From a virus: DNA of 43,782 nucleotides. Every line of letters begins with the position of its first letter. The first letter of the stretch is position 1. The translations under genes were made by a program, and so were the position numbers. Shown here in pieces: positions 1-43,782 of this stretch. Below the pieces are notes generated by a model that saw nothing but the letters and a program-made list of their open reading frames with translations, did not search any database and was not told where the DNA came from. The stretch covers positions 1 through 43,782 of IMG/VR virus record IMGVR_UViG_3300035222_000020; one strand, written 5' to 3'.

Positions 1-55
1 TGTCGCAGGAAGTTCAGACGCTGGAGTTGGTTATACAACAACAAGTGCTTACTAA
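1..55 (+). CDS. C-terminal end of an upstream gene (partial)
   Basis: An open frame enters from the left edge and reads 17 codons (last residues GVGYTTTSAY) before a TAA at 53-55. The next gene starts three bases later. In T4-like marine phages the gene before this baseplate block is often gp6 or a related wedge protein. The fragment is too short to identify, so that is a guess from position only. Confidence 0.5.
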   Translation, partial: VAGSSDAGVGYTTTSAY

Positions 56-58
56 CCA

Positions 59-2614
59 ATGGCAAAGTTTACTAAAAAGATTACCAGTCTTATTCAAGGT
101 CAGGTACCTGAATTTGTACTATCAGAACATCCTAAATTTGTAGAATTTATAAAAGCATATTTCACTTTTATGGAATCTGCTGAATTAGGTATTATTGAAT
201 CAGAATCTACTGAAGGTATTTTATTAGAAACAGAAACAGGTCAAGCTAACAATTTATTGTTAGACGCAAGTAGACTTGGTTCAGAAGCAACTCAAATAGA
301 CGCTGGTAATAAAATATTACAAGAAAGTTCTACTTATGGAAAATTCACGCAAGGTGAAATAATAAAAGGTCAAACTTCTAATGCCGAAACTGCTATATTA
401 GCAGAAGACTTAGCAACTAATAGATTATTCATAAATGCAAATGATAGTTTTATAAAAGGTGAAACAATTGTTGGATTAGTTTCTGGTGCGTCAGGTGTTG
501 CAGGAACTTATAGACCTAATCCAGTAAAACATATACAAGATTTGTTAAACTTTAGGGATCCTGATAAAGTTATACAACATTTCTTATCTCAATTTAGAAA
601 CGAAGTTTTAAACACAATACCAGAAGACTTACACGATAGTGTTAACAAAAGAGAATTAATTAAAAGAGTTAAAACTTTATATCGTACTAAAGGTACTGCA
701 AAAGGACACGAATTATTTTTTAGATTATTGTTTGGTGAAAACTCCGAAATCTTTTATCCAAAAGAACAAATGTTAAGAGTATCAGATGGAGAGTTTACTT
801 CTAATAAAGTTTTAAGAACAATTAATAGTGTTGGTAATACAGGACAATTAGTTGGAAGAACAATTACAGGTTTAACTTCTAATACAACTGCTGTTGTAGA
901 AAACTTAAATAGATTCCAAATTGGTGACCAACTTGTATCAGAATTATTATTAAATGAAGACAATATAGTAGGAACTTTTCAAGTTGGTGAAACAATTAGA
1001 GGTACTGCTACAGATACAGATGACATTTATATTAAGGCAACGGTTACAGGTGTTCCTGGAACATTTACAATTACAAATAATGGTTCACATTTTAAAATTG
1101 GAGACAATGTTAGTTTAGTAGGTGGTGGTCAAGCTTCTATTTGTCAAGTTGGAGAAATTGGAAGTGGACCAATAACAGATTTTTATATAAACGCTTCTGG
1201 TACACAATATCAAATAGGTGACCCAATAGTTTTTAGTAATGCAAATACAAATGGTGGTGGTGCCGTTGCTGAAATTGCTGTTGTTAATGGTGCCATTGGT
1301 AACGAAACAGGAACCGATGGACATATTGTTTATGAAACTGCAACAAGCACACACGATATTAGCCCAGGTAATAAAATTGCTTTAGAAACTGGACTAGGAG
1401 ATATTACAGACATAAGATTAATTAGTGGTGGTTCTGGTTATACAACAACACCTACAGCTACTATTACAAGTACAAATGGTGTTAACGCTGAATTACTTAC
1501 ATACGGAGATGGAATTGGAAATTTATTAGGAGTTACTATAGTAGAAAGTGGTCGCTCACACGAAACAGCACCAACACCTCCAACGGTTTCACTTATAGAA
1601 TCAATAGTTGTATTACAATCAAACGGAAGTTATGTTGCAACTGAAACGGTTACAGGTTCTTCTTCTAGTGCAACTGGTGTTGTAGTAAGTTGGGATAATG
1701 ATAGAAAATTATTAAGATTAAAAAATAGAAATGCTACTGCATTTACTTTAAATGAAACTTTGACTGGTGGTACTTCAGGTACAACTGGTTTAATGGGTAA
1801 ATCGGATCCAGGTACTGCAACGATTGATGTTGTTGGATTAGCAACAAGTGAAGGTAAATATATTTCAGAAGACGGACACTTATCAGAAACAACAATGAAG
1901 GTACAAGATAGTTTATACTATCAGGACTTTTCTTATGTTGTTAAAGTGGGTCGTACTATTGATGAATGGCGAGACGCATTTAAAAAGACTATGCACCCTG
2001 CTGGTTTTTACTTTACAGGACAAGTTAATATTGAAAGTAGAATAGACGCACAAATTAATATGCCTGTTGTTGGAAGAGTTACTGGAATTTCAACAAGTCC
2101 ATTTATTTCATTAATGAACACACTATTTGGAAGTGTATTTGGTAGAAGATTAGGAACAACAACTGATGGTACATCATTAAGAGCTAATCCTCATTTTGGA
2201 GTTGCTGGTGATGTTGTACAAGGTTCTAAATCTCCTTTCTCTACAACAACTAGAGATATTACCTTAACACAATCTCCAATGCAATTTAGCTTTCAGTTTA
2301 AACCTTTCTATTATTTCAGAACGGTTCATACAAATTTTGGGTCTGTATATGCTGGTCCTAGATTAAAAGAATTTAATACACGATTCCAAGGTATGATGAA
2401 TTTAAGTGCTATGAATTGGGCAAGAGTAGCTGAATTAAAAGTAATAGGAACGAATACAATTGCTGATGGAACAGATGTTGAATATGGGGATTTAACTACT
2501 ATTGCAAAGACATATATTACATTACCTGCTGAAGTATTAATACCTCAAGGTAAATTCAGTAATACAAGTACAAAATTTAGTAGTGGTATATCAACTTTTG
2601 ACTCAACCGTATAA
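59..2614 (+). CDS. Large baseplate-associated virion protein
   Basis: This 851-residue protein resembles the structural proteins that precede gp8 in T4-like marine phages. The N-terminus has the pattern PEFV..EHPKFVEFIKAYFTFME (residues 17-39), which I recognise from that family. At least four short beta-rich modules of the form GE.(I/V/L).G.(T/S)S.A follow, near residues 94-117, 132-151, 261-282 and 532-580. A GGSGY...P stretch like those of other virion proteins is near residues 459-467. A conserved-looking segment DAFKKTMHPAGFYFTGQV lies near residues 640-657. The same modules recur in the proteins at 4330, 5803 and 14962. It is probably a baseplate wedge or wedge-periphery component (gp7-like by position). 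The role is inferred, and no enzymatic motif is seen. Confidence 0.72.
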   Translation: MAKFTKKITSLIQGQVPEFVLSEHPKFVEFIKAYFTFMESAELGIIESESTEGILLETETGQANNLLLDASRLGSEATQIDAGNKILQESSTYGKFTQGEIIKGQTSNAETAILAEDLATNRLFINANDSFIKGETIVGLVSGASGVAGTYRPNPVKHIQDLLNFRDPDKVIQHFLSQFRNEVLNTIPEDLHDSVNKRELIKRVKTLYRTKGTAKGHELFFRLLFGENSEIFYPKEQMLRVSDGEFTSNKVLRTINSVGNTGQLVGRTITGLTSNTTAVVENLNRFQIGDQLVSELLLNEDNIVGTFQVGETIRGTATDTDDIYIKATVTGVPGTFTITNNGSHFKIGDNVSLVGGGQASICQVGEIGSGPITDFYINASGTQYQIGDPIVFSNANTNGGGAVAEIAVVNGAIGNETGTDGHIVYETATSTHDISPGNKIALETGLGDITDIRLISGGSGYTTTPTATITSTNGVNAELLTYGDGIGNLLGVTIVESGRSHETAPTPPTVSLIESIVVLQSNGSYVATETVTGSSSSATGVVVSWDNDRKLLRLKNRNATAFTLNETLTGGTSGTTGLMGKSDPGTATIDVVGLATSEGKYISEDGHLSETTMKVQDSLYYQDFSYVVKVGRTIDEWRDAFKKTMHPAGFYFTGQVNIESRIDAQINMPVVGRVTGISTSPFISLMNTLFGSVFGRRLGTTTDGTSLRANPHFGVAGDVVQGSKSPFSTTTRDITLTQSPMQFSFQFKPFYYFRTVHTNFGSVYAGPRLKEFNTRFQGMMNLSAMNWARVAELKVIGTNTIADGTDVEYGDLTTIAKTYITLPAEVLIPQGKFSNTSTKFSSGISTFDSTV

Positions 2615-2621
2615 TACGGTG

Positions 2622-2629
2622 TATAAATA
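2622..2629 (+). promoter_or_regulatory. T4-type late promoter TATAAATA
   Basis: This is a perfect TATAAATA octamer 32 bases before the ATG at 2654. T4-like late promoters consist of this -10-like octamer, recognised by the phage sigma factor gp55. The short leader contains AGGAAATAAACA, shared with other late leaders in the window. Confidence 0.8.
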
Positions 2630-2653
2630 TTAGGATAGTAGGAAATAAACAAT

Positions 2654-4288
2654 ATGGCAAAACAGACAATCAATTTAGGAAGTTCTCCAAATGATGGCAC
2701 AGGTGATAACCTTCGTGCTGGTGGAGATAAAATTAATGACAATACAACTGAATTGTATACAGCTCTTGGAGATGGTACAGATTTAAAAATTGTCGTAGCA
2801 GGTGCTTCATCAAACCAAATTTTACAATGGGATACAGGTAATAGTAGATTTCAACCAACTGCTTCAGCAGCTGCTGGAGATATATCTGTAGATACCAGTC
2901 CACAGCTTGGTGGCGATTTAGATATAAACGCTTTTAATATTATTTCTGCTAATAACGAAAATATAGAATTTGTTCCACACGGAACAGGAGTAGTTAAGTT
3001 AGATGAACTAACTTTTCCAACAGGAGCAGGAACTACAGGTTATGTACTTGCAACTGATGGCGCAAGTGCAATGTATTGGAAACAAGTAGGAAGTACAATT
3101 ACTCTTTCTGCTGATACTGGTACTGATGATACATATACGGTAGGCAATGCACTTAACTTTGGTGGTGGTACAGGAATTGGAACAACCGTATCAGACGACA
3201 ATATTACAATAGCAATAGACGACACGGTTGCCGATTTAACAACCGCACAAACTTTTTCAAACAAAATTTATGATGACCCAAATATAACAGGTACATCAAC
3301 AGGAAATATTAAATTTAGATGTGCTACAATAGGTTCATTTATTGCTCAAGGTGCTACTGCTCTTGCAAGTTTTCAACCTGCGTCTGCTTATGCAGGTGCA
3401 TTTGGTGTTGATACATCAACATACAAAGCTTACTTTGCTGCTAATTCAGCTTGGAACCAAATCGCAAGTTCATTATCATCAATTGATATTTTAGCAGATG
3501 TTGATACTACTACAGCTGCCCCTACTAATAACCAAGTACTTACTTGGAATAGTGGAAGTTCACAATGGAAACCTACATCAATAACATCCGAGTTAAGTGA
3601 TGATACTAGTCCAGTTCTTGCTGGTAATTTAGATTCAGCAGGATTTACAATTAATGGAACAGGTAAACTTGATTTAACTGGTTCAGGTGGAAAAGCAAGA
3701 TTTGATTTTACAAATACTGCTTCATTTCCAACAGCGGCTACTTATGCTGGTGGTTTTGCTGTATCAACTTCAACAACTAAAGCATACTTTGCTACTTCTT
3801 CTGGTTGGATTAACTTATTATCAGAAAACGATAGTGTAGATATACTAACAGATGTTGATACTACTACGGTTACTCCAGTATATGGACAAGTATTAGTATA
3901 TGAAAATGTAAGTGGTACTGGAATATGGAGACCAAATGATTATGTTCCAGCTCAAAAAGTAGCTGCAAATTTTAATGTGGGCAATAGCGGAACAGCAGAT
4001 TTTACTTTTACAGGTGATGGATTTACAACTCATAATAGTGGTGGTTCACAAAACGATCCTGTACTTTATTTAAAGAGAGGTCACACTTATACTTTTACGG
4101 TATCTAGTGGTGGTAATGTATTTGAAATTAGATATTCAAGTGGTGGAAGTGCATATAACTTTGGTGTAGATGGTAATTCAACGAGTAGTGGAACAATAAC
4201 TTTCTGTCCTCTAATGAGTTCTCCATCAACCTTATATTATCAATGTCCAAGTCATGCAGGAATGGGAAATACAATAAATCTATCTTAA
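2654..4288 (+). CDS. Fibre-like virion protein with C-terminal cupredoxin-like domain
   Basis: This 544-residue protein begins INLGSSPNDGTGDNLRAGGDKINDN, an N-terminus common in marine phage fibre or baseplate proteins. Repeated blocks follow, including two copies of A.Y.GAF/GGFAV.TST.KAYFA (near residues 245-258 and 362-377) and repeated DILTDVDTTT segments. Residues about 435-544 form a domain with a plastocyanin-like pattern, ending YYQCPSHAGMGN. Its Cys-x2-His-x3-Met spacing matches the C-terminal ligands of blue copper proteins. The usual first His ligand seems replaced, because the segment reads GNVFEIRYS where related phage domains have a His. Copper binding is therefore doubtful, and the fold may serve only as a structural or adhesive tip. 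It has its own late promoter. Confidence 0.72.
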   Translation: MAKQTINLGSSPNDGTGDNLRAGGDKINDNTTELYTALGDGTDLKIVVAGASSNQILQWDTGNSRFQPTASAAAGDISVDTSPQLGGDLDINAFNIISANNENIEFVPHGTGVVKLDELTFPTGAGTTGYVLATDGASAMYWKQVGSTITLSADTGTDDTYTVGNALNFGGGTGIGTTVSDDNITIAIDDTVADLTTAQTFSNKIYDDPNITGTSTGNIKFRCATIGSFIAQGATALASFQPASAYAGAFGVDTSTYKAYFAANSAWNQIASSLSSIDILADVDTTTAAPTNNQVLTWNSGSSQWKPTSITSELSDDTSPVLAGNLDSAGFTINGTGKLDLTGSGGKARFDFTNTASFPTAATYAGGFAVSTSTTKAYFATSSGWINLLSENDSVDILTDVDTTTVTPVYGQVLVYENVSGTGIWRPNDYVPAQKVAANFNVGNSGTADFTFTGDGFTTHNSGGSQNDPVLYLKRGHTYTFTVSSGGNVFEIRYSSGGSAYNFGVDGNSTSSGTITFCPLMSSPSTLYYQCPSHAGMGNTINLS

Positions 4289-4298
4289 AGGAAAGATG

Positions 4299-4306
4299 TA
4301 TAAATA
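4299..4306 (+). promoter_or_regulatory. T4-type late promoter TATAAATA
   Basis: A perfect octamer lies 31 bases before the ATG at 4330. The following leader TTAGAAATAGGAAATAAACA is identical to the one at 31291-31310. I saw no other perfect octamer until 23531, so this promoter may drive about 19 kb, including the radical-SAM cassette. Confidence 0.82.
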
Positions 4307-4329
4307 GTGTTAGAAATAGGAAATAAACA

Positions 4330-5790
4330 ATGCCAGCAATTATAACAAGTAAATTTAGACGAAACAATGCTCAACAATTTGAGGAATCTTTTGGTGAGGC
4401 AGCTCCAAATGTCTATTACCTAGGAATAGGAAAACCAACTGCGTTTGGAACAAAAACTAGAGCAGATGGAAGGACAGATAACATAGGAACTGATTCAGCT
4501 CCTATAACACCAGCAGATTCAGTACAAGATGAATATGATACTTTTGATGATTTACTGGCTGCTAAAAAAATTACAAGCTCAGATGTTGCTTTTGCTTGTC
4601 CTAGAATAAATTGGGCAACAGGAACAACTTATGATATTTACAGAAACGATTATGGTAATAGAATAACAGGTACTACTACTACTCAATCTGCAAATTCAGG
4701 AGCAACAAATTTATATGACGCAAACTTCTATGTATTGAATACAAATTTTAAAGTCTATAAATGTTTAGACAATAATGACAACTCAGCGTCAACGGTTGAA
4801 CCAACTGGAGAAAGTGTTAATATATTAGAAACAGCAGATAGTTATAAATGGAAATATATGTTTACTTTATCTGCAAGTTCACAAGCAAATTTCTTATCAA
4901 CAGATTTTATGGGAGTTTCTACAAACTCTTCTGTACAAAATGCTGCTGTAGATGGCGACATATCAATTATTAAAATTAAGGCTGCTGGTACAGGTGGTAC
5001 TGATGGAACACATACAGGCATTGCAATTAGAGGAGATGGTTCTGGAGGAACTTGTTCGGTAACTATTGCTTCAGGTTCGGTTACTACGGTTGTGGTTACA
5101 GGAACACCAATTAACTATTCTTTTGGATATGTTAGAGTGGCAGATATTGTTGCCGCTGGTGGTACAAATTTAATAGGTGCTGAGTTAGATGTAATTACAG
5201 AACCAAAAGGCGGACACGGTTTTGACCCATTTGAAGAATTAGGTGCTTTCTTTATAATACTTAATACTTCTTTTGAAGGTGCTGAAACTGCTAACTCTGG
5301 AGACTTTGCTACACAAAACGATTTTAGAAGAGTTGCTTTAATTAGAGACCCTTTAGCTGGTGGTTCGGCTGCTAGTACAACAACATTAAGAGGAACTAAA
5401 GCAATTAGATTTGACGCAGGTGCAGGAACTTTTGTTGCTGACGAAAAGATTACACAAACAAATACAGGTGCTGTTGGTAAAGTCGTACAATGGGATACTG
5501 CAAATTTAATTTTATATTATATACAAACAAGATATGATGATGAAGGTGTTGACGCAAATGGAAATATGACTGCTTTTTCTGGTACCAATGTGGTAACAGG
5601 AGGCACTTCAACTGCAACAGGCACACCAACAGGCACAACCGAAACGGTTAACAATGTTTCTTTAGTTTCAGGTTATTCTACTTCCGAAATAGACGCTGAC
5701 TCTGGCGATGTAATGTACATTGAAAACAGAGCGCCAGTAACCCGAAGTGTTGACCAAACGGAGAATGTTAAGTTAATCATAGAATTTTAA
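4330..5790 (+). CDS. 8: Baseplate wedge subunit gp8-like
   Basis: This 486-residue protein begins MPAIITSKFRRNNAQQFEESF and continues with NVYYLGIGKPTAF, DDLLAAKKITSSDVAFACPRINW and GTTYDIYRNDYG. These are the hallmark segments of gp8-like wedge proteins of T4-like cyanophages and pelagiphages. gp8 is part of the baseplate wedge that changes conformation on adsorption. The C-terminal half (residues about 365-455) carries GTFVADEKITQTNTGAVGKV and a TGGTSTATGTPTGTTE run, the same short module seen in neighbouring virion proteins. The start follows a strong leader and late promoter. The next gene begins 12 bases after the stop. Confidence 0.85.
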   Translation: MPAIITSKFRRNNAQQFEESFGEAAPNVYYLGIGKPTAFGTKTRADGRTDNIGTDSAPITPADSVQDEYDTFDDLLAAKKITSSDVAFACPRINWATGTTYDIYRNDYGNRITGTTTTQSANSGATNLYDANFYVLNTNFKVYKCLDNNDNSASTVEPTGESVNILETADSYKWKYMFTLSASSQANFLSTDFMGVSTNSSVQNAAVDGDISIIKIKAAGTGGTDGTHTGIAIRGDGSGGTCSVTIASGSVTTVVVTGTPINYSFGYVRVADIVAAGGTNLIGAELDVITEPKGGHGFDPFEELGAFFIILNTSFEGAETANSGDFATQNDFRRVALIRDPLAGGSAASTTTLRGTKAIRFDAGAGTFVADEKITQTNTGAVGKVVQWDTANLILYYIQTRYDDEGVDANGNMTAFSGTNVVTGGTSTATGTPTGTTETVNNVSLVSGYSTSEIDADSGDVMYIENRAPVTRSVDQTENVKLIIEF

Positions 5791-5802
5791 AGAGGGAAAT
5801 GA

Positions 5803-8800
5803 ATGCCAAGTCCAACTGACTTTAATCTCTCGCCTTATTATGATGATTTCTCGGAAAGTAAAAGCTTCCATAGAATATTATTCAGACCAGCTTTTGCTGT
5901 ACAGGCTAGAGAGTTAACACAATCACAGACAATCTTACAAAATCAGATTGAAAAAATGGGTAACCACATATTTGAAAGTGGTGCTCAGATGATACCTGGT
6001 GAGATTACTTATGACTTGCAATACTATTCTGTTAAGTTAACTTCATTTACAGGTACAAGTACATTATCAGATTTTGTTGGACTTACTTTAATAGGACAAA
6101 CTTCTGCTGTTGAAGCGAAGATTGTTGCTGTTGATATTGCAACTTCAACTGACCCAAATACTTTATATGTTAAATATAATAAAACTGGTGTAGGTAATAA
6201 TACAAACGACTTTGTTGCTGGTGAATCAATGGTAGCAGTACACGCAAGTTTAGGTAATCTAACTGCTGTATGTACAGAATCATATACAGGTTCAGCTGCT
6301 TCAGTTGCTGCTGGTACTTATTACATTAATGGGTATGCTGTTAATGTTGATAAACAAACTTTAGTATTAGACAAATATACAAACGAACCATCATATAGAA
6401 TTGGTTTAACAATCACAGAAAGTTTTGTAACACCTAACAACGATAGTACACTTGTAGATAATGCTCAAGGTTCTTCAAATGTAAATGCTCCAGGTGCTCA
6501 CAGATTTAAAATTGCATTAACACTTAGTAAACTTGCTTTAACTGCAATTACAGATACAAACTTTATAGAATTATTAAGATTAAGTAGTGGTGCTTTACAA
6601 AATATAGTTAGAAGTACTGAATATGCTATTTTAGAAGATACTCTTGCTCGTAGAACAAGTGATGAAAGTGGAGATTATACTATAAGAACTTTTGATTTAG
6701 ATGTTAGAGAACATTTAAGTTCAGGAGATAATAGAGGAATTTATACATCAGGAAATGGTGGTTTAGAAACTAAACTTGCATTAGGATTATCTCCAGGAAA
6801 AGCATATGTTAAAGGATACGAAATAGAAAAAGTAGGAACCGAATTTGTTACAATAGATAAGGCAAGAACATTTGGAACTGAAAGTGGTTTCCCTACAAAA
6901 TTTGATGTTGGAAATTATGTTAATGTATCTAATGTATATGGTTCTCCAGATGTAAATTTTATAACAGGAGAAACAGAAGCCTTTAAAGCATTACAATTAA
7001 AACTTTCTTCACCAACTTATGCTGCTGGAACAATTACTGCAAATAATGAAAATTTAATATTAGATATTGGTCGTGCCAAATCTAAAGGTTTTGAATATAA
7101 CGCAAGTACAGGAGCCGCAATATCAGGTTCAGGAAATATAAGTCCATCAACAAGTGAAATTTATAAACATTATCTATTTGATATAGAAATGTTTAGTCAT
7201 ATAGGTATTACTACTAGCCAAGCATTTACAACTGGTGAAACTTTAACAGGTTCTTCTTCTGGTGCAACTGCTGTTGTTGAAAGTGTATCTACAAATACAA
7301 CTTCTACAATCTCTTCATCTACAGCTGCTGATCCTGTTGTTATAACAATGGCTGCTGATTTAGATATTAAAAATGGTGACGCAATAACAATTACTAGTGT
7401 TAGTACACAAACAGAATTAAATGATAATGTTTATTATGTTAAACAAGTAATTGGTGGTACTGCTAAAAGAGAATTTGCATTATATGACTCAAGCGGAACT
7501 GCTGTTGACGGAACTGGTCACACAGGCGCAGGTACAGGTGGAAATATTGCAACTTCTAAAGTAGTTGTATCAAATGTACAAGGAGATTTTTTACCTAATG
7601 AAACGGTTACAGGTGGTACTTCTTCTAATACTGCAACAACTAAAACAGATGTATTTGAAAACAAAGCATTTACAAGTTATGGTTCTAGTGATGTAAAAGA
7701 AATTACAATGGCAGGAAGTCCAACTTATACTGCTCAAACAGAATTATCATCAGCGTATGGAGAAAATGTACAACTATCTGGAACAATTTCAGTATCAGGT
7801 GGTGGACAATCTGTAGTAGGTTTCAATTCTAAATTTAATACAGAATTAAAAGTTGGAGATTCAATCCAATTTGCTGATACAGGTGGAACAATTACAACAA
7901 GAGAAGTTATAGAAATTATATCTTCTTCAGCATTAACACTAGGAAGTGCTATTGGTGGAACTGCTGTGTCTAGTTCAATTGTAATTAGACGAAGAACAAA
8001 ATTACAAGAAGCTGATAAAAATATTGGTATCTTTGAATTACCTTATAGTACAATTAAAACATTAAAGACAATTGTAAATTCAGGTATAAGTGATACTGCA
8101 TTTACGGTTAGAAAATCTTTTGTTGGAACATTAACTTCAACAGGAGATATTACTATTACTGCAAATACTGGAGAGACTTTTATATCTCAATCAGAAGCAG
8201 ATTATTCAGTAACCATAATGACAAAAGGCGGTTCTTCTTCTGCTGGTGTTGTTGGAGATAAATTATCTACAACTGGAAACCAACACGAAGGTGACGCTTG
8301 TTTTGCGTTATCTGGTTCACCTGTTGGTCGTACTTTAACTTTAGATTTTGGTGCTAATCATCAAGGACACAAAGTAAAAATTATTGGAACTTTAAGTAAA
8401 ACAGCACAAAACGAAAAAACAAAAACTTTAACTTCAAATGCGACTTCAACTATTACAACTCAAGCAGATTGTGAAGCAAGTACTATCTCTTTAGGCAAAG
8501 CTGATATTTACTCTCTTGCTTCTGTTAAAATGGCTGCTGACTTTTCAACAACACCTGTTTCTGGAGATACAGACATTACAGATAGATTTTCTTTAGACAA
8601 TGGTCAAAGAGATAACTTCTATGATATTGGAAGATTAAAAAGAGTTGATGGAAGTTTAAATCCAACTGGACAATTACTAATTACATTTAATTATTTTACA
8701 CATGGTAATGGAGATTTCTTTAGTGTAGATAGTTATTCAGGACAAATAGATTATACATTAATTCCAACTTATACTTCTGATACAACTGGTGACGATTATA

Positions 8801-11800
8801 GATTAAGAGATTGTTTAGATTTCAGACCTAGAGTAGATGACGCAACTACAATTAATGCTGGTACACAAAATAGGAGTTATGATGGTACAGGTGCTTCAAC
8901 TATTGATATTGTTAAATTTGGAACTTCTGTTAATTCAGACCACGAATTTTATAAAGGAAGAATAGATAAATTATTCTTAACAAAAGATGGTGAGTTTAAA
9001 GTATTATCTGGTGCTCCAGATGTTAAACCACAAGCGCCTGATATAATTGATAATGCTATGCACCTATACACAATTTCATTACCTGCTTATAACTTAACAA
9101 CGGATGATGTAATTTTTGAAACAATTAATAATAGAAGATATACAATGAGAGATATTGGTTCTATTGAAAAGAAAGTTGATAGAGTTGAATATTATACTCA
9201 ATTATCTTTATTAGAAACTGCTGCTCAATCATTACAAATACAAGACGCTGATGGCTTTGATAGATTTAAAAATGGATTTATAGTAGATAATTTTAAAGGT
9301 CACGGTATTGGTGAGGTTACAAATAGCGATTACAGATGTTCAGTTGATTATGCAAAAGGAGAATTAAGACCTCATTTTAACCAAGACGCTGTTGAGTTGG
9401 AAGAAGTAGATGAAGACGGAACAGCTTTAGTTGACGCTGATAGAACGGCTGCTAACTATCAAAAGATTGGTGATTGTTTATTATTACCATTTGTAGAAAA
9501 AGATTTAATTAATCAACCTTTCGCTTCTAAAGCGATTAATGTTAATCCATTTGCAATTTTTAGTTGGATGGGAACAATAGAATTAACTCCAAGTTCAGAT
9601 GAATGGAGAGAAACACAACGAACACCTGAACTAGTAGTAAATTCTACTACTGGTGCTTGGGACCAATTGTTAAGAGAAGGAAGAGTTCCTAATCAAAATG
9701 AAATAGCACTTGGTACGGTTTGGAACGAATGGCAAACAAATTGGACTGGAAGTCCAATAATGGATATTGGTAGTCAAAGAACAGGTAGTACTTGGAGACA
9801 CGGTAGAGCAGTTAGACAAAGAGTTAACATTACTTCTATCAACCAAGTTAACCAAAGTAGAACAGGAATTACAACAACTGCTGTACCTCAAACGGTTAGA
9901 ACAAGTATGGGAGATAGAGTAATTGATGTTGCTTTTGTTCCATTTATTAGAAGCAGGGATGTTGCTTTTGTTGCAACGAGATTAAAACCAAATGCTAGAG
10001 TTTATCCTTTCTTTGATAATGTAGATATAACTTCTTATGTAACTCCAACAAGTGGTTCACTTGGAGGTAATTTAGTTACGGATGCTAATGGTGCTGTATC
10101 TGGTGTTTTCTCAATACCTGATCCAAAAATTGATACAAATCCAAGATGGCGTACAGGTGAAAGAACATTTAGATTAACTTCATCAAGTACTAACTCTATG
10201 GATGCTGCTGCTGTTTCTACAGCTGCTAATGCTGAATATATTGCTAGAGGTCTATTGAATACGGTTAGAGATACAATTGTTTCAACTAGAGAATTTAGAG
10301 GTGTAAACACAACGGTAACAGACCAACAATCGGTTATTAGAACAAGTACAAGACAAGTAGTACAAACGGTTGGATGGGTTGACCCATTATCACAAACTTT
10401 TATGACAGATGAAAAGGGTGGAGTATGTTTATCTTCTATAGATTTATATTTCTCTACTAAAGACGCAAATATTCCTGTAACCGTACAAATTAGAAATACG
10501 GTTAATGGTTATCCTGGAAGTAAAATACTTCCATTTGGAGAGGTTACTTTAATTCCTTCTGCTGTTAATACAAGTTCAGACGCTTCAGTAAAAACAACAT
10601 TTACTTTTCCTAGTCCTGTTTATATACAAGACCAAGTAGAGTATTCTTTTGTTATTATGTCTAACTCAAATGATTATGAAACTTATGTTGCGAGATTAGG
10701 CGAAACAAATATAGGTTCTAGTAGAACAATATCAAAACAACCATATGCTGGTGTTATGTTTAAATCTCAAAATGGTTCAACTTGGACTGCTGAGAATAAC
10801 GAAGATATTAAATTCACAATGAAAAGATGTGAGTTTTCTGCTGTTACTGGAACGGTTCACTTATCAAATAAAACTTTAAGTGCTAAAACATTAAAACAAA
10901 ATCCAATTAGAACAACAAATAGTTCTGGTGTAGTTAGAGTGTATCATAAAAATCATAATTTACACGATACAAATTCGTGTGTTACTATTGCAGGAGTTCC
11001 AAATGGTACTCACAATGGTATTGCTCATACAGATATTAATGGTGATTATACTGCTATAACAAATGTAACTTTAGACACTTATGATGTAACAACTAGCGGA
11101 ACTGCAACTTCATCAGGAGATGTTGGAGGTACAGCGGTTACTGCTACAGAAAATAGACAATTTGATGTATTGAATTTAGGTGGTCTACAATCACTATCAG
11201 TTCCTGGAACTTCAATTGTTCCATTTGTAAGAACAACAACATCAAAATCAATTCACGGAACACAAACACCATATAGTTTACTTAGTGAAGCTAATAGACA
11301 ATCGGTTACTTTGGCAGATGATATATACTTTACTCAACCACAAGCAGTTATGTCAACACCAAATGAAACTACTCGTATGGCTGGTGCAAAATCTTTTTAT
11401 GTTATTATGGAGATGTCAACAACAAATCCAAAAATTTCTCCAATTATTGACTTAGCTAGAAGAAGTGTTTTTTGTATTACAAACAGATTAAATAATCCAA
11501 CTTCAGGAAATACACCTTCGTTTCAATCAGAAACAGCAGCTAATGGTTCTTCAAGTGCTTCAAAATATATTACAAAACCTGTAGTGTTAACAAACAACTC
11601 AACAGCGTTAGATATTAGATTGACGCAAGTAGTAAGAACAAGTGCTAAAGTAGAAGTTTATTATAGAACAACAAGTGCTGATGAAGTTAGAAATATAAAT
11701 GAGATTAACTGGACACCATTTAATACTGCTGGTGAAGCAGACAAAACGGTTACTGCTTCTGAAGCTGATGATGACTTTAGAGAATATCAATATTCAGCAA

Positions 11801-11910: not shown

Positions 11911-11914
11911 TTAA

Positions 11915-12148
11915 ATGATAAACAATTTGGTTAAAGTATTGAAGTTTGAAAGTTTACAAAGAGATATAAGTTCAAATGCTATTGTAAATACAAGTTCTAG
12001 TGATTATGAAATTTATATAGCTAGAAAACAACAACGAGAAGTAGATAAAAATAAAATGCAAGATATATGTAGAGAAATAAATACTTTGAAAGCAGAATTA
12101 ATAGAAATTAAAAATATAATAAAGAACGGTAACGGAAATGGCAGTTAG
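11915..12148 (+). CDS. Small coiled-coil protein, unknown
   Basis: This 77-residue protein begins four bases after the DUF4815 gene and overlaps the next gene by 11 bases. The sequence is mostly charged and helical. Residues about 38-70 (QQREVDKNKMQDICREINTLKAE...) have heptad-like spacing consistent with a coiled coil, and the end is NGNGNGS. No clear ribosome site precedes it, so translation is probably coupled to the upstream stop. Small coiled-coil proteins in this place may act as assembly chaperones or fibre connectors, but that is speculation. Confidence 0.6.
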   Translation: MINNLVKVLKFESLQRDISSNAIVNTSSSDYEIYIARKQQREVDKNKMQDICREINTLKAELIEIKNIIKNGNGNGS

Positions 12149-13436: not shown

Positions 13437-13445
13437 GAGTAGATT

Positions 13446-27522: not shown

Positions 27523-27546
27523 AACAAAAATTAGAGAGATTTAAAA

Positions 27547-31287: not shown

Positions 31288-31310
31288 ATATTAGAAATAG
31301 GAAATAAACA

Positions 31311-34532: not shown

Positions 34533-34538
34533 TAAATA
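34531..34538 (+). promoter_or_regulatory. Possible weak late promoter (AATAAATA)
   Basis: This octamer differs from TATAAATA at its first base and lies 32 bases before the ATG at 34563, the spacing of the perfect promoters. It is a likely but weaker late promoter. Read-through from 31280 is the alternative. Confidence 0.4.
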
Positions 34539-34562
34539 TAATTAAGATAGGGAAAAATTAAA

Positions 34563-37500
34563 ATGGCAAAAATAAATCTCGGAAGAATTAAATTACAATT
34601 CCAAGGGGAATACGATAGAGAACAACTATACAGAAGAGACGATATAGTATACCATTCTAACGCAATGTGGATACTAACAAATGAATATCTTGCTGATGGT
34701 TCAAGCGCATATGCTCCTGGAAGTAAAGTAGTTGGATATAATGTAAAAGAAAGAACTGGTGGTAACTGGTCGCAAGATCCAGATTACAACGGTGCTGACG
34801 CATTTAACTATACACAATATTGGACAGAAAACGAAAGAAAAGGCGAAAGACAAAGAACCGACCAAGATGGAAACCCTATCAAATATAATTCTACTTACGG
34901 TTCTAACGAAGAAGGCGCAAATGAACAATCTTGGAATCAAATAGATACAGCATTGGGAACGGTTGTTCGTCATCAAACTCACTTAATGGATGAATATGAT
35001 TCTATGTTTAGAGAAACAGAAGATGATTATTCAGAAATGGATACTTACAATGGTTATGAACAAACTTATTTTAGATACCACTACAGACCAATAGATAATT
35101 CTTTTGAAGTACAGGTTTCTATTTCAGGTGGTGTAGCAGATTTTAAAATTGATAACAGACTAGGTTCTGATACTAAAGGTAGACAATTCGCTGGATATAG
35201 AAACTTTGAGTTTGTTAGAGAAGGTCATAGATACAATTTTATTCAACAAAAAAATTCAAACAAATACTATCCAATAGGATTTTCTTATACTGCTGATGGT
35301 ATTCATAATGCAAATAATTTAGGTAAGTCATTAGGACAGGATCCTGATGGACCTTATTATGTAAAAGGAACAACTTCAACTGGTGATAGTGGTTTCTTTT
35401 CACCAATGTATAAAACAGAAGCTTCTGCTATCGCTGAAGATACAAGACGAGGTGGTGGTGGTGCTGCTCACAAATTAACTTTTGACCAAGGTGATGTACC
35501 TGGTTGGGAAACTCAATCAGTTGCTTTACAAGGTCATAAACACGCTGATGGCACACAAAGAAAAGATACGCAAGTTTCAGTATTAACAGACGCAAGTAAT
35601 AACACTTATTTACAAGTTTCAAATTCTTGGAAAGGAACAACTACTGGTGGAGTTGCTTCTTCTGAAAGAAAAACGATTTATTTACATACTGGCGATACTA
35701 CAGAACATCACGCACAAACAGGAACAACATATTCTTATGTTTATGTTGACGGTGCATTACAAGTTAATTCTAATATAACAGCTGTAGTAACACAAAGTAG
35801 AGACGATACAACAACTTTAAATGCTGGTGCTGGAAGACAAAGATTATTAATTAATGGAAAACCAGTTTATCAATTAGTTGCTGAAGCTTCTACCGTTGTT
35901 GTTGGTGGTATATCTGGTGATTATCAAGGAATAGATAAGACTGGAACTGGAACAACTACTGCATTGGGTTCAACTCCAACTTCTAACGAAGATAAGATTG
36001 AACTTTATATGCCGAAACTTACGGATTCAACAGAAAATACTGAAAGAACTTTTGAAGTTTCTGTATCAGGAAGTAAATTTCATATAGATGGTTCATTGGC
36101 AACTGCTGAAACGGTTAAATTAGAAGAAGGAAAAACTTATAAGTTTGACCAATCTGATTCAACTAACGCAGGACAAACATTAACTTTCTCAACAACTAGT
36201 GATGGAACACACGCTAGTGGTTCTGCATACACAACTGGAGTAACCCATTATGGTACTCCTGGAAGTGCTGGTGCTCATACAATAATTAAATTACAAGCTG
36301 GTGTAGCTAAACTTTATACTTACTCAGCTGAAACAGCTTCCTATGGATTCGCAACAGAAACTTATGATATGTCTGCAAATCTTGGTAAATCATATGCTCC
36401 TGGTAATCTACCAAAATGGAGAGGATATGGTAAAAACGGATGGGTTAAATATTACCTAGACGGATATCAAGTAGATGAAAATACTTACATTGAATGTTTC
36501 TTTAAATCGGATCAAGCAGATTACGATTATCAATACCCACAAGAAATGGATAATGGAAGATGGAAAGGTGGAAATCAATACAATTTCTTAAACAAAGGTG
36601 AGAGAACGGTTGAATTAACGGTTCCTTATCAAACAACTCAATCTGAAGCTGAAAAAACGGTTATCTATCCATTCTGTTTAGAACCAACTACTGCTACTAG
36701 AGCAACTACTGGTATGTACAATAGTTCTGGTTTCTCAATTGAGAAATCTTGGAGAGGTTTCAAACATTGGGACAAAATACAATCATCTTTAAGATTTAGA
36801 GGTGAATATTCTACTAACACACAATACAATTACAATGATGTTGTGTCTTACAAACCTTTCAAAAAATTAACAAATGAAAAATGGTATACACAAGGTACTG
36901 GATTATACAAAGCAATAAGAGATAGTAAAGGTAGACCACCTCAACACGGTCACCAAGAACCAACAAGGTCTCCTTTAATGACAAAATCTTCTGTTACTGC
37001 TGGAAAATTAACTGGATACGGTGAACACGAAAATAATAATACAACAGGAAAAAATTATCCTCCACATATTCAATCATATCATAATGCTTGGGAATCCTTT
37101 GCAGGTATGAATGCACAAGAACAATGTGCTGGAGTTTGGTTCCCGAATAGGGGTCCAATCGGATGGCCGTTTAAACATGGTCGGTCTGAATCTGCCAATA
37201 CTTACAGAAACCATATGTACATAGATAAAAATGGTGCATTATGGACAATTGGGGAAGGTAGTTCAAGCTCCGATATGCACCACGCTAGGTCGTCTTCATA
37301 CTTTAGAGAAGTATGTTTTAGATGGAGAGATTTTTACAATTCTGAAAGCAGAAACGAAGGTGGTTATAATAATAGACGAGGACCTAAATGGTCTCGTTAT
37401 GACAGAATGAGAACACCTCGCTGTATACAGATTGAACAAGGATACGATTATACAACCGTTCTATTTGATAATGGTGAATTATTCCACGGTGGTTATGGTG

Positions 37501-38648
37501 GTCACGGTCAACAAGGTACTGGTTTTGATGGTAATCCTAATGTTCCTGTATCACCTGATGGTGTTGAAAATGTACACTTTATTAAAATCACTCATAATAT
37601 TCAAAATGAAGATAGTACTCATACGATATGCTGTTTAACAGATGAAGGTGATGTATACACTTGGGGATTCAATAGTTATGGTGAAGTTGGTGATGGTAGA
37701 GCTACGCATACTTATGGACCTAAAAGAATTCCAAGAGAATGGTTTAATGACGAAAAAATTATAGACATTACTTGTCAAGGAACAGATGGTACTAGTTTTT
37801 ATGCTAGAACTTCACAAGACAACATTTATGCTTGGGGATATAATAACATTGGTCAATTAGGAGATACAACAACCGTTAACAAATATAGACCAATATTACA
37901 GACAGGATTTAACGCTTCAGATAACGGCGGTATCGCTGTATGGCAAGCTAATTCAGGAACATCACACTCCTCTTTCCATATATTAGATGGAGATGGATAC
38001 ATTTGGAGTACAGGTTATAACAACTATAGTCATTTCTTTGATAATACAACAACTGATAGAAATACTATGACAAAAGCAGATATTGCTCCTGGTGGAGATA
38101 TAGTTGACTTTTGGACAATGAGATACAATGGTTATCATACATCTTTTGTTAGATTGAAAAATGGAGAAACTTGGACTGCTGGATTCTCTGGAACTTATTA
38201 CAATTCAGGTGATGGTGGACAAGGAACAAACACAGCTCCAGTTCAAGTAGATAAAATTAATAACTTGAAAGAAGTTGCACTTTGCAATACTTATTCTGAC
38301 CAATGTAGAAGTTATTGGTTAACAGATAACGGTGAATTCTTTTGTCAAGGTAGGGATGTTTACGAATCTATGCCTAATCCTCTTGCTGGAGATAGTTGGA
38401 ATGGTGAAGATGGAACATACAAACCATACCACGCTTATGTACCTGCAGGAACTAGAATAAGAACAATGTGTATTCAAGGTATTGACCAAGGTACTTCCTA
38501 TTATGGATTACAACCTTGGGTAGGAACCGAAGACGGACAATGTTTACTTTGGGGATTTTCTAATGCTAATAACTTGGGACATCATGGACCTGCTACTTAT
38601 TCAAATACAGGAAGACCTTTGATGTGGGGTGCTTGTAATGGAAGATAA
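34563..38648 (+). CDS. Tail fibre 3 with cupredoxin-like relic and RCC1-like propeller
   Basis: This 1361-residue protein begins LGRIKLQFQGEYDREQLYRRDDIVYHSNAMWILTNEY, and a second copy of that module (FRGEYSTNTQYNYNDVVSYK) lies near residue 744. Two beta-domains related to the phage cupredoxin-like fold appear: REGHRYNFIQQKNSNKYYPIGFSYTADG near 220-247, and KLEEGKTYKFDQSDSTNAGQTLTFSTTSDGTH...YTTGVT near 520-560. In the second, the copper-ligand positions are lost. The part after residue about 845 has RCC1-like repeats such as GGYGGHGQQGTG, WGFNSYGEVGDGR and WGYNNIGQLGDTTT. It is one of four fibres with a common N-terminal module. Confidence 0.82.
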   Translation: MAKINLGRIKLQFQGEYDREQLYRRDDIVYHSNAMWILTNEYLADGSSAYAPGSKVVGYNVKERTGGNWSQDPDYNGADAFNYTQYWTENERKGERQRTDQDGNPIKYNSTYGSNEEGANEQSWNQIDTALGTVVRHQTHLMDEYDSMFRETEDDYSEMDTYNGYEQTYFRYHYRPIDNSFEVQVSISGGVADFKIDNRLGSDTKGRQFAGYRNFEFVREGHRYNFIQQKNSNKYYPIGFSYTADGIHNANNLGKSLGQDPDGPYYVKGTTSTGDSGFFSPMYKTEASAIAEDTRRGGGGAAHKLTFDQGDVPGWETQSVALQGHKHADGTQRKDTQVSVLTDASNNTYLQVSNSWKGTTTGGVASSERKTIYLHTGDTTEHHAQTGTTYSYVYVDGALQVNSNITAVVTQSRDDTTTLNAGAGRQRLLINGKPVYQLVAEASTVVVGGISGDYQGIDKTGTGTTTALGSTPTSNEDKIELYMPKLTDSTENTERTFEVSVSGSKFHIDGSLATAETVKLEEGKTYKFDQSDSTNAGQTLTFSTTSDGTHASGSAYTTGVTHYGTPGSAGAHTIIKLQAGVAKLYTYSAETASYGFATETYDMSANLGKSYAPGNLPKWRGYGKNGWVKYYLDGYQVDENTYIECFFKSDQADYDYQYPQEMDNGRWKGGNQYNFLNKGERTVELTVPYQTTQSEAEKTVIYPFCLEPTTATRATTGMYNSSGFSIEKSWRGFKHWDKIQSSLRFRGEYSTNTQYNYNDVVSYKPFKKLTNEKWYTQGTGLYKAIRDSKGRPPQHGHQEPTRSPLMTKSSVTAGKLTGYGEHENNNTTGKNYPPHIQSYHNAWESFAGMNAQEQCAGVWFPNRGPIGWPFKHGRSESANTYRNHMYIDKNGALWTIGEGSSSSDMHHARSSSYFREVCFRWRDFYNSESRNEGGYNNRRGPKWSRYDRMRTPRCIQIEQGYDYTTVLFDNGELFHGGYGGHGQQGTGFDGNPNVPVSPDGVENVHFIKITHNIQNEDSTHTICCLTDEGDVYTWGFNSYGEVGDGRATHTYGPKRIPREWFNDEKIIDITCQGTDGTSFYARTSQDNIYAWGYNNIGQLGDTTTVNKYRPILQTGFNASDNGGIAVWQANSGTSHSSFHILDGDGYIWSTGYNNYSHFFDNTTTDRNTMTKADIAPGGDIVDFWTMRYNGYHTSFVRLKNGETWTAGFSGTYYNSGDGGQGTNTAPVQVDKINNLKEVALCNTYSDQCRSYWLTDNGEFFCQGRDVYESMPNPLAGDSWNGEDGTYKPYHAYVPAGTRIRTMCIQGIDQGTSYYGLQPWVGTEDGQCLLWGFSNANNLGHHGPATYSNTGRPLMWGACNGR

Positions 38649-38657
38649 CATTAATAG

Positions 38658-38665
38658 TATAAATA
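38658..38665 (+). promoter_or_regulatory. T4-type late promoter TATAAATA
   Basis: A perfect octamer lies 41 bases before the ATG at 38699, with CGGAG as ribosome site. The leader is about 10 bases longer than at the other late promoters. Confidence 0.75.
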
Positions 38666-38698
38666 GAAGTATTAACAAACAATAACGGAGAAAATAAA

Positions 38699-39088
38699 AT
38701 GGCAAAAGTAATATATTCAATGACTGCTGGAATAGCGCAGGATGCTGATTATACTGCACCTGTAGGTGATACGCCAATTAGTTTAGGAGAAGTAGAAGGT
38801 AAAACTTATTTTTCTATAGATGATGGTAATACTACTATCACAACTGATGGCACAAACGCTTCAAAATATGGTGTGGCTGTAGTATCAGACGCTGATGAAA
38901 AAGTAAAAGTCAAAAATGCAAGTTCTCATGTAACACAAGGACTAAGCACTTTAGATAATGAGTTCCTTACAGGAAAAAGTATGATAGACCTTTTAGCAGA
39001 TGTCGCTGACTCAACAGGAGCAACAACAACTGCAATAGCAAATCATAAAACAGCAAAAGCTACATTTTTAACAGATTTAGGATTTTAA
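38699..39088 (+). CDS. Small protein between fibre genes
   Basis: This 129-residue protein has AKVIYSMTAGIAQDADYTAPVGDTPISLGEVEGKTYFSIDDGNTTITTDGTNASKYGVAVVSDADEKVKV and a helical end (LTGKSMIDLLADVADSTGATTTAIANHKTAKATFLTDLGF). It could be a fibre-associated protein or a chaperone for the neighbouring fibres. I do not recognise the family. It has its own late promoter. Confidence 0.62.
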   Translation: MAKVIYSMTAGIAQDADYTAPVGDTPISLGEVEGKTYFSIDDGNTTITTDGTNASKYGVAVVSDADEKVKVKNASSHVTQGLSTLDNEFLTGKSMIDLLADVADSTGATTTAIANHKTAKATFLTDLGF

Positions 39089-39118
39089 TTAATAAATTTA
39101 GAAAATAGGTAATAGTAA

Positions 39119-41317
39119 ATGGCATTAGATATTAAAAATTTTAAAGTAACCTGGAAAGGCTCTTGGAAAGATAAAGAATCTTACGATAAAAATGATGTGG
39201 TTTATTGGAGAGGTAAAAGTTATAGATGTATAGAAGATACACCTACTCACTATACAATTTCTTCTGAAGCTCCACAAAATACTAATTCGTATGGTAATTA
39301 TCAACCAACGCTAGTCAAAAGAAGTTACAGACCAGATAATAGAAGATATTGGACATTACTATTAGCAGGTAACGATAACATTGAAACTTGGCAATATTGG
39401 AGACAATATGAAAGAGGCGAAATGGTTAAAGTTGCTGACAAAATTTATCTATGTTTACAAAGAACAAGATATTGTAATACTTGGGTAGAAGAACACGATG
39501 GAAGACCATCAAAATATTGGACATTAATATATGTTAATGAAAACAAGTGGTGTACTAGAAACGAAGTTGTATCATTTAACAACCGTGCTCCGTTAGGTTG
39601 GAGATACAATATGGGAGTTTCACACACTGGTTGTGCTGACCAATCATATAGAACTGCTACAATATGCTCAGATGGTTCTGATATGTGGGTTGGTTCTTCT
39701 GACTCATCCCAATGTTCTGGATTAGGAGAAGGTACTGCTGGAAATGACGAACCTGCAAAACATATGTCAACAGGTTTCACATTTACAGATTGGATGGCTT
39801 CTACAGATAATCAAAATTGGAATATTAATGCGACTGGAAGGATGACAACTCCTGACGGTAAAGCACCAAGAGTAATACAAATAGCACATAATTATCAAAG
39901 AACAATGTGGTTAATGAATAATGGTGAAGTATATGCTGCTGGTAATAATGGAAATTACAATTTAGGAAATTCTGAAACTACAGATAGACCTTATGCTGTA
40001 AGATGTACTGCAACAGATACACAAGACTGGCAAGGAAATACAATTGGAAAAACTTTCAATCAAACTAGAATGGTTAAAGTTGGATTTTCAGACGAAGCAA
40101 AAGACCAAGGAACAACTTGTTCACAATACGCACTCGGTTCCGATGGTTCAGTATGGGTATGGGGATACAATAATGAAGGTCAACTTGGACTAGGTAATCC
40201 AGGAATTAATGCTCTTGCTGACGCTGTTGGCGGACCAACTTCAACTGCTTTCTATTCTGTAAACATACCAAGACCAGTAAGATTACCACAATCATATTTT
40301 GATGGACGAAGAATTGTAGATATGTGGGCTTCTGGTTCACAGAATGCTTATTGGCACGCTTTAGATGACACAGGACAATTATGGGCTTGGGGTCACAATA
40401 TTTACGGTGAATTAGGATTAGGTAATAGAGTTGGATCTCATTACTATACGGTACCTTATAGAGTTGGAATTAACTGGAATAGATACGGTGGAATTAAATT
40501 ATATAGAACTACTCACTCTAACGGTGACCAACACTCTACACACATTTTAGATGGTGAAGGATATATGTGGTTCACAGGTTATACGACTTCTGGTAACTGG
40601 CCAATTGGTTCTCCAGGATTAACAACAACTCATCACATTGGTTCATTTAGAAGAGAAGGTCACTTTATAAACGGTGATATAGATTTCTTCTGGTGCGGTG
40701 GCGATGAAGAAAAATGGTTGTATATAAGACAAAAATCAACAGGTATGTTATGGGTACACGATGGAAACTATGGAACTTATGGTGGTCGTGGACAATCAGT
40801 AGAAAACAACGCATACACTTATTTTTCTGGTGGACATCCAGGAAGCTTTATACATCAAAAAGGTCCTAAATGGGCTGTCAATGTATGTGATGTTGGACAA
40901 AATAGAGGTGATGGAACTTATACTTACTCTTTCCCAATGATACTTGATGACGAAGGATTAATATGGGGTGGTTCTCCATATAGTAATGAAGAACAAGGAC
41001 TTGGTGGTCCGTCTTCAAATGAAGAACATTGGAATAATGGTGGTCGTAATGACACGCAAGGTGCTATGGAAGACAATGAAATGTTTAGAACAAGAAAAAG
41101 AATTGTATTCCAACCTTCAGGTGGTCATAGATGGACAGATTTATTCTATTCAGGAACTAGTTCTTCAAATATACCAAGAGCTATTAACCAAAGAGGTCAA
41201 GTATACTGGACTGGTTATGATGGAAGTACTTCAGTAACTCAACACTATGATTATTATAGTGAAGGTGCTGCTAGTAACCAAACACAATACTTCTTCCACT
41301 TGGGTCCTAGAGACTAA
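39119..41317 (+). CDS. Tail fibre 4 with RCC1-like beta-propeller
   Basis: This 732-residue protein begins IKNFKVTWKGSWKDKESYDKNDVVYWRGKSYRCIEDTPTH, the shared module, with a second similar WQYWRQYERGEMVKVADKIYLCLQR unit near residue 91. Residues about 178-730 carry RCC1-like repeats: AAGNNGNYNLGNSETTD, VWGYNNEGQLGLGNPG, AWGHNIYGELGLGNRVG, WFTGYTTSGNWPIGS, WGGSPYSNEEQGLGG. It is the shortest of the fibre set and lacks the long middle domain of the others. No TATAAATA precedes it, so it is probably co-transcribed with the small upstream gene. Confidence 0.82.
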   Translation: MALDIKNFKVTWKGSWKDKESYDKNDVVYWRGKSYRCIEDTPTHYTISSEAPQNTNSYGNYQPTLVKRSYRPDNRRYWTLLLAGNDNIETWQYWRQYERGEMVKVADKIYLCLQRTRYCNTWVEEHDGRPSKYWTLIYVNENKWCTRNEVVSFNNRAPLGWRYNMGVSHTGCADQSYRTATICSDGSDMWVGSSDSSQCSGLGEGTAGNDEPAKHMSTGFTFTDWMASTDNQNWNINATGRMTTPDGKAPRVIQIAHNYQRTMWLMNNGEVYAAGNNGNYNLGNSETTDRPYAVRCTATDTQDWQGNTIGKTFNQTRMVKVGFSDEAKDQGTTCSQYALGSDGSVWVWGYNNEGQLGLGNPGINALADAVGGPTSTAFYSVNIPRPVRLPQSYFDGRRIVDMWASGSQNAYWHALDDTGQLWAWGHNIYGELGLGNRVGSHYYTVPYRVGINWNRYGGIKLYRTTHSNGDQHSTHILDGEGYMWFTGYTTSGNWPIGSPGLTTTHHIGSFRREGHFINGDIDFFWCGGDEEKWLYIRQKSTGMLWVHDGNYGTYGGRGQSVENNAYTYFSGGHPGSFIHQKGPKWAVNVCDVGQNRGDGTYTYSFPMILDDEGLIWGGSPYSNEEQGLGGPSSNEEHWNNGGRNDTQGAMEDNEMFRTRKRIVFQPSGGHRWTDLFYSGTSSSNIPRAINQRGQVYWTGYDGSTSVTQHYDYYSEGAASNQTQYFFHLGPRD

Positions 41318-42857: not shown

Positions 42858-43425
42858 AATATGGGAAATGGTAGAAGGTGTAACTACACATATTCAAGCA
42901 ATTTTTAAAAGAGAAGGTAAATGGATTGGTAAAGGAGTATGGAAAACACCAGAAGCAAGAAGATGTCAATTAAAGGTTGTTGACGAAAAAGAAACAAAAG
43001 GATTCTATATGCTTCATTGTTGTGTATTTCCAAAATATAATAGTCCTATTTACGGATTAAGTATATGTGCGACTACAAAAAGAGTTGATGTCTTCCACGA
43101 TTTTACTCCAGTACAGAAAGACCACTCTATGGTTCCTTGGTTTGCTAAAGAAGTAAAGGGATATACACCATCTAAAGTAAGAGAGTTACCTGATTGGGCA
43201 ACTAAAATTTATAGTCCTAATGTAATAGCTGCTACTAATATAACAAAAGAAAGCGAACTTATGAATGCTTTGAGTTTAGTAGAATGCAATCTAGGTGTTT
43301 ACTTTACACTATTAAGAAGATATGATAAAGAAGTACAAAATACACAGGAAATAGAAGACACTCAAAATAGATATAAAGCAACGATTGAAGATAATGTCAA
43401 ATGGATAACAAATGACTACCAATAA
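42835..43425 (+). CDS. pcyX: Ferredoxin-dependent bilin reductase, PcyX-like
   Basis: I choose the ATG at 42835 because GAGG (42824-42827) precedes it by seven bases. An ATG at 42817 would add six residues. The 196-residue product has MLHCCVFPKYNSPIYGLSICATTKRVDVFHDFTPVQ, the core of the bilin-reductase fold (F.....P..G..I.A...RV....D..P). The end, LVECNLGVYFTLLRRYD...IEDTQNRYKATIEDNVKWI, matches the C-terminal helix of these enzymes. They reduce biliverdin with reduced ferredoxin. It looks nearer to the oceanic-virus PcyX group (phycoerythrobilin-forming) than to cyanophage PebS or PcyA, but that assignment is from memory and needs a tree. The short length and divergence are noted. Confidence 0.78.
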   Translation: MAYYQRNRIWEMVEGVTTHIQAIFKREGKWIGKGVWKTPEARRCQLKVVDEKETKGFYMLHCCVFPKYNSPIYGLSICATTKRVDVFHDFTPVQKDHSMVPWFAKEVKGYTPSKVRELPDWATKIYSPNVIAATNITKESELMNALSLVECNLGVYFTLLRRYDKEVQNTQEIEDTQNRYKATIEDNVKWITNDYQ

Positions 43426-43427
43426 AT

Positions 43428-43435
43428 TATAAATA
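43428..43435 (+). promoter_or_regulatory. T4-type late promoter TATAAATA
   Basis: A perfect octamer lies 33 bases before the ATG at 43461, just after the bilin reductase stop. AAGGAAATAA is the ribosome site. Confidence 0.78.
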
Positions 43436-43460
43436 TAGCAGAAGATAAAAGGAAATAACT

Positions 43461-43782
43461 ATGGCAACTCCAAATACGAGACAAACATTAATATCTTATG
43501 CTAAAAGAGCATTAGGACATCCTGTTATAGAGATAAATGTAGATGATGACCAACTAGATGATAGAGTAGATGAAGCAGTACAATACTATTCACAATATCA
43601 CTATGATGGAATCAGAAGAACATATTTAAAATATCAGTATACTCAAGCAGACCAAAATAGAATTTTAGCAGATGGTACCGAAGGCGCAACAAAAAATTCT
43701 GTAACTAGTACCTGGAAAGAAGGTAATAATTATATTATAGTACCTGAAACCGTATTTGCGGTTACAAATATATTTCCTTTCT
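43461..43782 (+). CDS. 13: Neck protein gp13-like (partial, runs off the window)
   Basis: The open frame gives 107 residues to the window edge, starting MATPNTRQTLISYAKRALGHPV and IEINVDDDQLDDRVDEAVQYYSQYHYDG. This is the typical N-terminus of the gp13 neck protein of T4-like marine phages (ATPN.RQTLI.YA.RALG.PV.E.NVD.DQL.DR.DEA.QYY). gp13 with gp14 closes the head-tail connector. The 3' end is outside the window. It confirms that the fibre and bilin genes lie between baseplate and neck genes. Confidence 0.88.
   Translation, partial: MATPNTRQTLISYAKRALGHPVIEINVDDDQLDDRVDEAVQYYSQYHYDGIRRTYLKYQYTQADQNRILADGTEGATKNSVTSTWKEGNNYIIVPETVFAVTNIFPF

Follow-up and report, generated by a model that had tools for sequence, protein, structure and literature searches.

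Absence of ACWGT and other short palindromes from a T4-like marine phage lineage is probably due to restriction in its host population, likely SAR11

Introduction

Restriction-site avoidance is a known strategy of phages, and lytic double-stranded DNA (dsDNA) phages avoid the sites of Type II enzymes (Rusinov et al. 2018, PMC6286503). Another described route is the acquisition of methyltransferases that block restriction, as in lactococcal 936-type phages (PMC4190342). Phages of SAR11 are depleted in GANTC, and this depletion splits the phage phylogeny, which is a puzzle since no restriction-modification (R-M) was detected in the SAR11 genomes of that study (PMC9516812). Here, we analyzed IMGVR_UViG_3300035222_000020, a 43,782-base IMG/VR fragment of T4-like phage DNA (the window, meaning this whole stretch), from which the word ACWGT, that is ACAGT and ACTGT, is wholly absent. 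As in the dsDNA phages mentioned above (PMC6286503), the window presents a near or total, strand-symmetric loss of short palindromes; unlike them, it avoids eight or more sites together, ACWGT among them, in a set that is specific to its clade, and the remaining sites stand in seemingly protective contexts. Compared with the GANTC-depleted phages (PMC9516812), with which it probably shares the host group, the window clade differs in being free of ACWGT and ACGT and mostly free of TCGA and CATG, and not of GANTC. Beyond that report, R-M pairs were seen in SAR11 genomes, and the remaining GANTC sites of phage HTVC008M are all GGANTC or GANTCC. As far as the open literature searched shows, the ACWGT site, the breadth and completeness of the avoided set, the protective contexts, and the SAR11 R-M pairs are new. 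We consider it probable that the absence of ACWGT denotes avoidance of a site at which a Type II-like restriction endonuclease (REase) of the host population, most likely SAR11, cuts.

Materials and Methods

Expected counts were obtained from a maximal-order Markov model, from a dinucleotide model, and from synonymous-codon shuffling of coding DNA, in which proteins and codon usage were kept fixed. Count pairs such as 0/185 denote observed/expected.

Results and Discussion

Over all 43,782 bases, ACAGT and ACTGT each occurred zero times on the + strand, where 56 were jointly expected from the maximal-order Markov model, 127 from the dinucleotide model and, in coding DNA, 85-88 from synonymous-codon shuffling, ACWGT being the most extreme of all 5-mers (z = -17). 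A previous reading made by eye from the letters (the sequence-only reading) had claimed this total absence, which the computed counts bear out under every model; its expectation of a few tens of each word was too low, given the 85-88 expected jointly in coding DNA. The same reading had described ACGGT and ACCGT as abundant and as the usual spelling of Thr-Val, and indeed these words number 78 and 24 on the + strand, enriched as the only alternatives left, with ACSGT in coding DNA reaching 100 against 44 expected. Among the 67 Thr-Val pairs, the Thr codon before GTN is ACG in 47 and ACC in 20, and never ACA or ACT; elsewhere Thr is written ACA 675 times, ACT 600, ACG 47, and ACC 40, and thus the general preference for ACA and ACT, also noticed before, holds for 1,275 of 1,362 (94%) Thr codons that do not precede Val. 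Furthermore, both words are missing from the other two reading frames as well, no frame holding either, and the avoidance of this palindromic site is strand-symmetric, with both words equally absent and no frame dependence. Cleavage at one site at the RNA level was rejected: with every large gene encoded on the + strand, it would not account for the loss of ACAGT and ACTGT alike.

Both SAR11 and T4-like marine phages have AT-rich DNA with strongly biased codon use, and a codon-pair, dinucleotide, or mutational bias might remove ACWGT without any nuclease. This explanation is scarcely credible, however, because shuffling with proteins and codon usage held constant still predicts the 85-88 sites given above, and the words are absent in all three frames and on both strands; moreover, mutation alone would leave non-synonymous products, whereas the replacements are synonymous (ACG or ACC before GTN). 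Near relatives and hosts also have normal counts. In SAR11 coding DNA (80 loci, 249 kb) we obtained 262/288 for ACWGT, 220/269 for ACGT, 442/475 for TCGA, and 277/317 for CATG, with GANTC as the only low word (322/535), and host-like composition was rejected as a cause because this DNA holds the avoided words; similarly, the Pelagibacter phage Mosig and HTVC008M carry 259 and 361 ACWGT sites, respectively. Since Mosig, HTVC008M, and SAR11 hold normal ACWGT, the absence can be ascribed neither to host composition nor to the codon use of T4-like phages, and it is shared neither by host DNA nor by every related phage. With these counts and the frame test, codon-pair or Markov bias is refuted for practical purposes.

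T4-like structural genes were recognized across the window by PHROG matches. From PHROG matches and open reading frames (ORFs), baseplate wedge genes occupy 59..11910 on the + strand, in coding DNA from which ACAGT and ACTGT are missing, and gp8 (4330-5790, + strand), a baseplate wedge gene, served as the marker for the tree. In the near-relative search, Mosig was the sole phage with DNA similarity to the window, and the gp8 protein was 66% identical to that of Mosig and 51% to that of HTVC008M, followed by OM43 and cyanobacterial phages with less than 40%. Because these nearest cultured relatives were both isolated on SAR11 strain HTCC1062, SAR11 (Pelagibacterales) is the likely host of the window phage.

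Among 79 IMG/VR loci with gp8, all those with at least 76% identity lacked ACWGT, and also ACGT save for one single site, and loci with 66% identity or less mostly presented normal ACWGT and avoided other words (TCGA in L030-L043; TGCA in L032, L038, L044-L046, and L056). The window clade comprised 27 rows of the gp8 tree (support 100/100), all of them ACWGT-free; on this tree the trait changed at least four times, with independent losses elsewhere in L053, L038, and L056. No ACWGT occurred in 487 kb from 31 partly overlapping clade loci, and long relatives lack it genome-wide over more than 280 kb, with 0/185 (G001, 110 kb), 0/195 (G002, 120 kb), and 0/111 (G011) in coding DNA, where G006 gave 0/93. 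The MT-A70 methylase gene drew the same boundary, as all nine scanned loci with at least 86% identity had no ACWGT, and nearly all scanned loci with 76% or less carried it, with the exception of L286 (0/20). In the 60-kb contig of G006 (L100), the only two ACWGT sites lie within positions 1-650, together with six other forbidden words (ACGT, CATG, TCWWGA) of which the remainder of the contig is nearly free; these first 650 bases are probably foreign sequence at a chimeric end, and forbidden words can thus detect misassembly. As a separate observation, L032, L038, L044-L046, and L056 belong to another clade that is nearly TGCA-free (e.g., 1/49 and 4/90), with ACWGT at zero in some members only.

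ACWGT is one of a set, since the window also lacks ACGT (0 vs 71-82 expected), TCGA (0 vs 46-53), CGCG (0 vs 7-9), and TCAAGA/TCTTGA (0 vs 29-33), losses that had been overlooked by the sequence-only reading. TCTAGA and TCATGA are also zero on either strand, and CCGG (1), CASTG (2), GATGC (8), CATG (11), and GATC (20) stand far below expectation, which brings the number of sites avoided at once to at least eight. Each of three unrelated SAR11 podophages (HTVC010P, HTVC011P, and HTVC019P; 35-42 kb) also avoids its own palindrome set. HTVC010P (L266; 34.9 kb), grown on SAR11 HTCC1062, is a mirror of the window clade, with ACSGT at 0/21 and ACWGT at 51/53, and it further lacks CTNAG (0/59) and TCTAGA (0/12); GATC is 0/76 in HTVC011P and 0/88 in HTVC019P.

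These phages bear on another option raised previously, that the phage itself encodes an ACWGT endonuclease to degrade host DNA; such an enzyme might also keep out rival phages, and the phage's own genome would be site-free. A self-encoded cutter would enforce total avoidance, constant throughout the clade, as seen; SAR11 DNA would offer it many targets (the 262 sites in 249 kb of coding DNA), and several clade-specific proteins are without assigned function. Nevertheless, we regard it as distinctly unlikely and less parsimonious, because the sites avoided by the window phage would need as many nucleases and the small phages avoid as many palindromes; a 35-kb phage such as HTVC010P can hardly encode so many, which favors cutters met in cells. 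Also contrary to a phage nuclease are the independent ACWGT losses in the gp8 tree and the scan of about 120 accessory proteins of relatives, which gave several DNA methylases and no REase among the best 25 families listed per scan, ORFs across fragment borders being missed and the window itself being a fragment.

Regarding surviving sites, the 20 GATC of the window (557..40437; starts at 557, 1805, 4055, 7330, 10120, 14288, 17565, 18093, 19876, 20860, 22022, 26541, 28690, 29110, 33925, 34465, 34776, 35340, 36510, and 40434) all have G before or C after, eight of them being GGATCC, with no HGATCD. In coding DNA, HGATCD was 0 against an expected 55 in the window, 144 in G001, 163 in G002, 72 in G006, 74 in G011, 193 in Mosig, and 207 in HTVC008M. 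Survival of GATC is graded, with GGATCC at or above expectation, half-protected forms reduced, and unflanked forms lowest; in Mosig, GGATCC is the only form left. The eight GATGC (+ strand, 10081..38745; starts at 10081, 10201, 12648, 17038, 18472, 26845, 31198, and 38741) are all GGATGC, HGATGC being 0 against 57 expected, and throughout the window clade HGATGC is 0-1 against 57-146, with GGATGC near expectation. The GANTC sites of HTVC008M all carry a preceding G or a following C (HGANTCD 0/210). Both CASTG of the window (15645..39629; starts at 15645 and 39625) are in a CCAGTG/CACTGG context, and CASTG survivors are mostly CCAGTG. The 11 CATG (4253..38930; starts at 4253, 8701, 24619, 27108, 27117, 31884, 33702, 34350, 37176, 38583, and 38927) are scattered, with none in the close relatives L007-L011, and ACWGT, ACGT, and CGCG have no surviving context.

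As three different sites (GATC, GATGC, and GANTC) share the preceding G, the best reading of these contexts is a GGA-directed modification that would block the cutters, its effect depending on whether one strand or both are protected. Like 936-type phages (PMC4190342), relatives of the window carry genes for DNA methylases of the MT-A70 and N6/N4 families, and the surviving sites look shielded; unlike in those phages, the shield is deduced here from the GGA context, and none of the relatives' DNA methylases examined could be tied to GGA. MT-A70 is not supported as the sole GGA shield, because HTVC008M shows the context without an MT-A70 homologue and GATC is unrestricted in many of the MT-A70 carriers. 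No Dam-type MethyltransfD12 was detected in 17 phage records.

ACNGT is a known Type II specificity (HpyCH4III/Tsp4CI-like), and the sequence-only reading had named it beside ACWGT as a specificity to look for; were it the site, ACSGT would owe its survival to a methylase, much as GATC would to the GGA context. The protected contexts of other sites and the enrichment of ACSGT (100/44), the sole surviving class, are consistent with such a shield. ACSGT is not avoided in the window, however, and a shielded ACNGT appears quite improbable, since ACWGT-zero lineages arose several times, always keeping ACSGT, and would have needed the same shield each time; in addition, HTVC010P avoids only ACSGT and keeps ACWGT, so that W- and S-specific selection exist separately.

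As judged from protein-model matches, Type II R-M is carried sporadically by SAR11. A PF00145 m5C methylase scored above the cut-off in 54 of 297 SAR11-family genomes, matches to the PADLOC REase_II model adjoin such methylases (L243, L244, L248, and weakly L252), and one REase family was present in five of the 297 genomes, each of them also a PF00145 carrier. In other neighborhoods, SAR11 m5C methylases adjoin an AIPR protein (L245), an MrfA-type zinc-binding (MZB) protein (L251), an HNH protein (HNH_2; L254), or a second methylase (L255), which may possibly be further R-M or abortive-infection systems.

Under host restriction of ACWGT, phages of the lineage carrying the word would have been killed or disadvantaged when a host Type II-like enzyme cut the double-stranded site, synonymous substitution (e.g., ACA/ACT to ACG/ACC before Val) would have removed every copy, and ongoing selection would hold the count at zero. 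Further short sites (ACGT, TCGA, CGCG, TCWWGA-type, CATG, GATC, GATGC, and CASTG) may have been lost likewise, each lineage with its own set. We infer restriction as the agent, and the earlier proposal of a palindromic restriction-type site under host defense is well sustained as to its kind by the symmetry, the clade-wide absence, the further palindromes, the protective contexts, and the SAR11 Type II pairs.

Several points weigh against this explanation. The SAR11 genomes and phage accessory proteins scanned yielded no ACWGT-specific endonuclease, in host or phage, and NCBIfam, as well as PDB for one SAR11 REase, gave no specificity. SAR11 R-M pairs occur in a minority of genomes and none is tied to a recognition site; the NlaIII/ICEA-type CATG enzyme gave one weak match in 297 SAR11 genomes, and a published survey reported no R-M in SAR11 metagenome-assembled genomes (PMC9516812). 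Likewise, the word ACWGT was not found in the open literature searched, the host of the window is assigned through its cultured relatives, and the protective contexts could instead be flank preferences of the cutters.

Past or non-SAR11 hosts (e.g., other R-M-rich marine bacteria) might also carry the enzymes, an alternative that shares the restriction mechanism and accords with the sporadic R-M of SAR11 and with HTCC1062, the isolation host of Mosig and HTVC008M, not being known to carry these enzymes. It seems unlikely, as zero sites in hundreds of kb need continuing selection and unrelated SAR11 podophages also avoid palindromes.

Other features of the window were recorded. At 13934-22374, a 2OG-Fe(II) oxygenase and proteins without assigned function lie interspersed among four radical-SAM proteins (phrog_1802), a stretch that is kept throughout the clade (G001, G002, and G011) and that Mosig and HTVC008M lack; weak matches to viperin (pVip) models also came from accessory proteins of the clade. 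Three large RCC1-like-repeat proteins in a row (31311-41317), the third of which (39119-41317) was judged by eye only, adjoin tail fiber genes and are probably receptor-binding modules. Finally, a ferredoxin-dependent bilin reductase-like gene lies at 42817-43425, with PF05996 and heme oxygenase in relatives; the likely host is non-photosynthetic.

Conclusion

We tentatively propose, with less than even confidence, that a SAR11 pool of varied Type II systems, one of them with an undescribed ACWGT specificity, erases at least eight sites from T4-like phages, and that these phages also carry a GGA-directed modification shielding GATC, GATGC, and GANTC after G. If true, both the hidden cutters of the host and the modification made by the phage could be read from the sites that survive. 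No other bacterial group of the surface ocean is as abundant as SAR11, and the phage genomes speak for restriction as a strong force acting on its phages at present. With the avoided sites named, ACWGT included, the SAR11 enzymes become findable, and the contexts of the survivors predict where virion DNA is modified.

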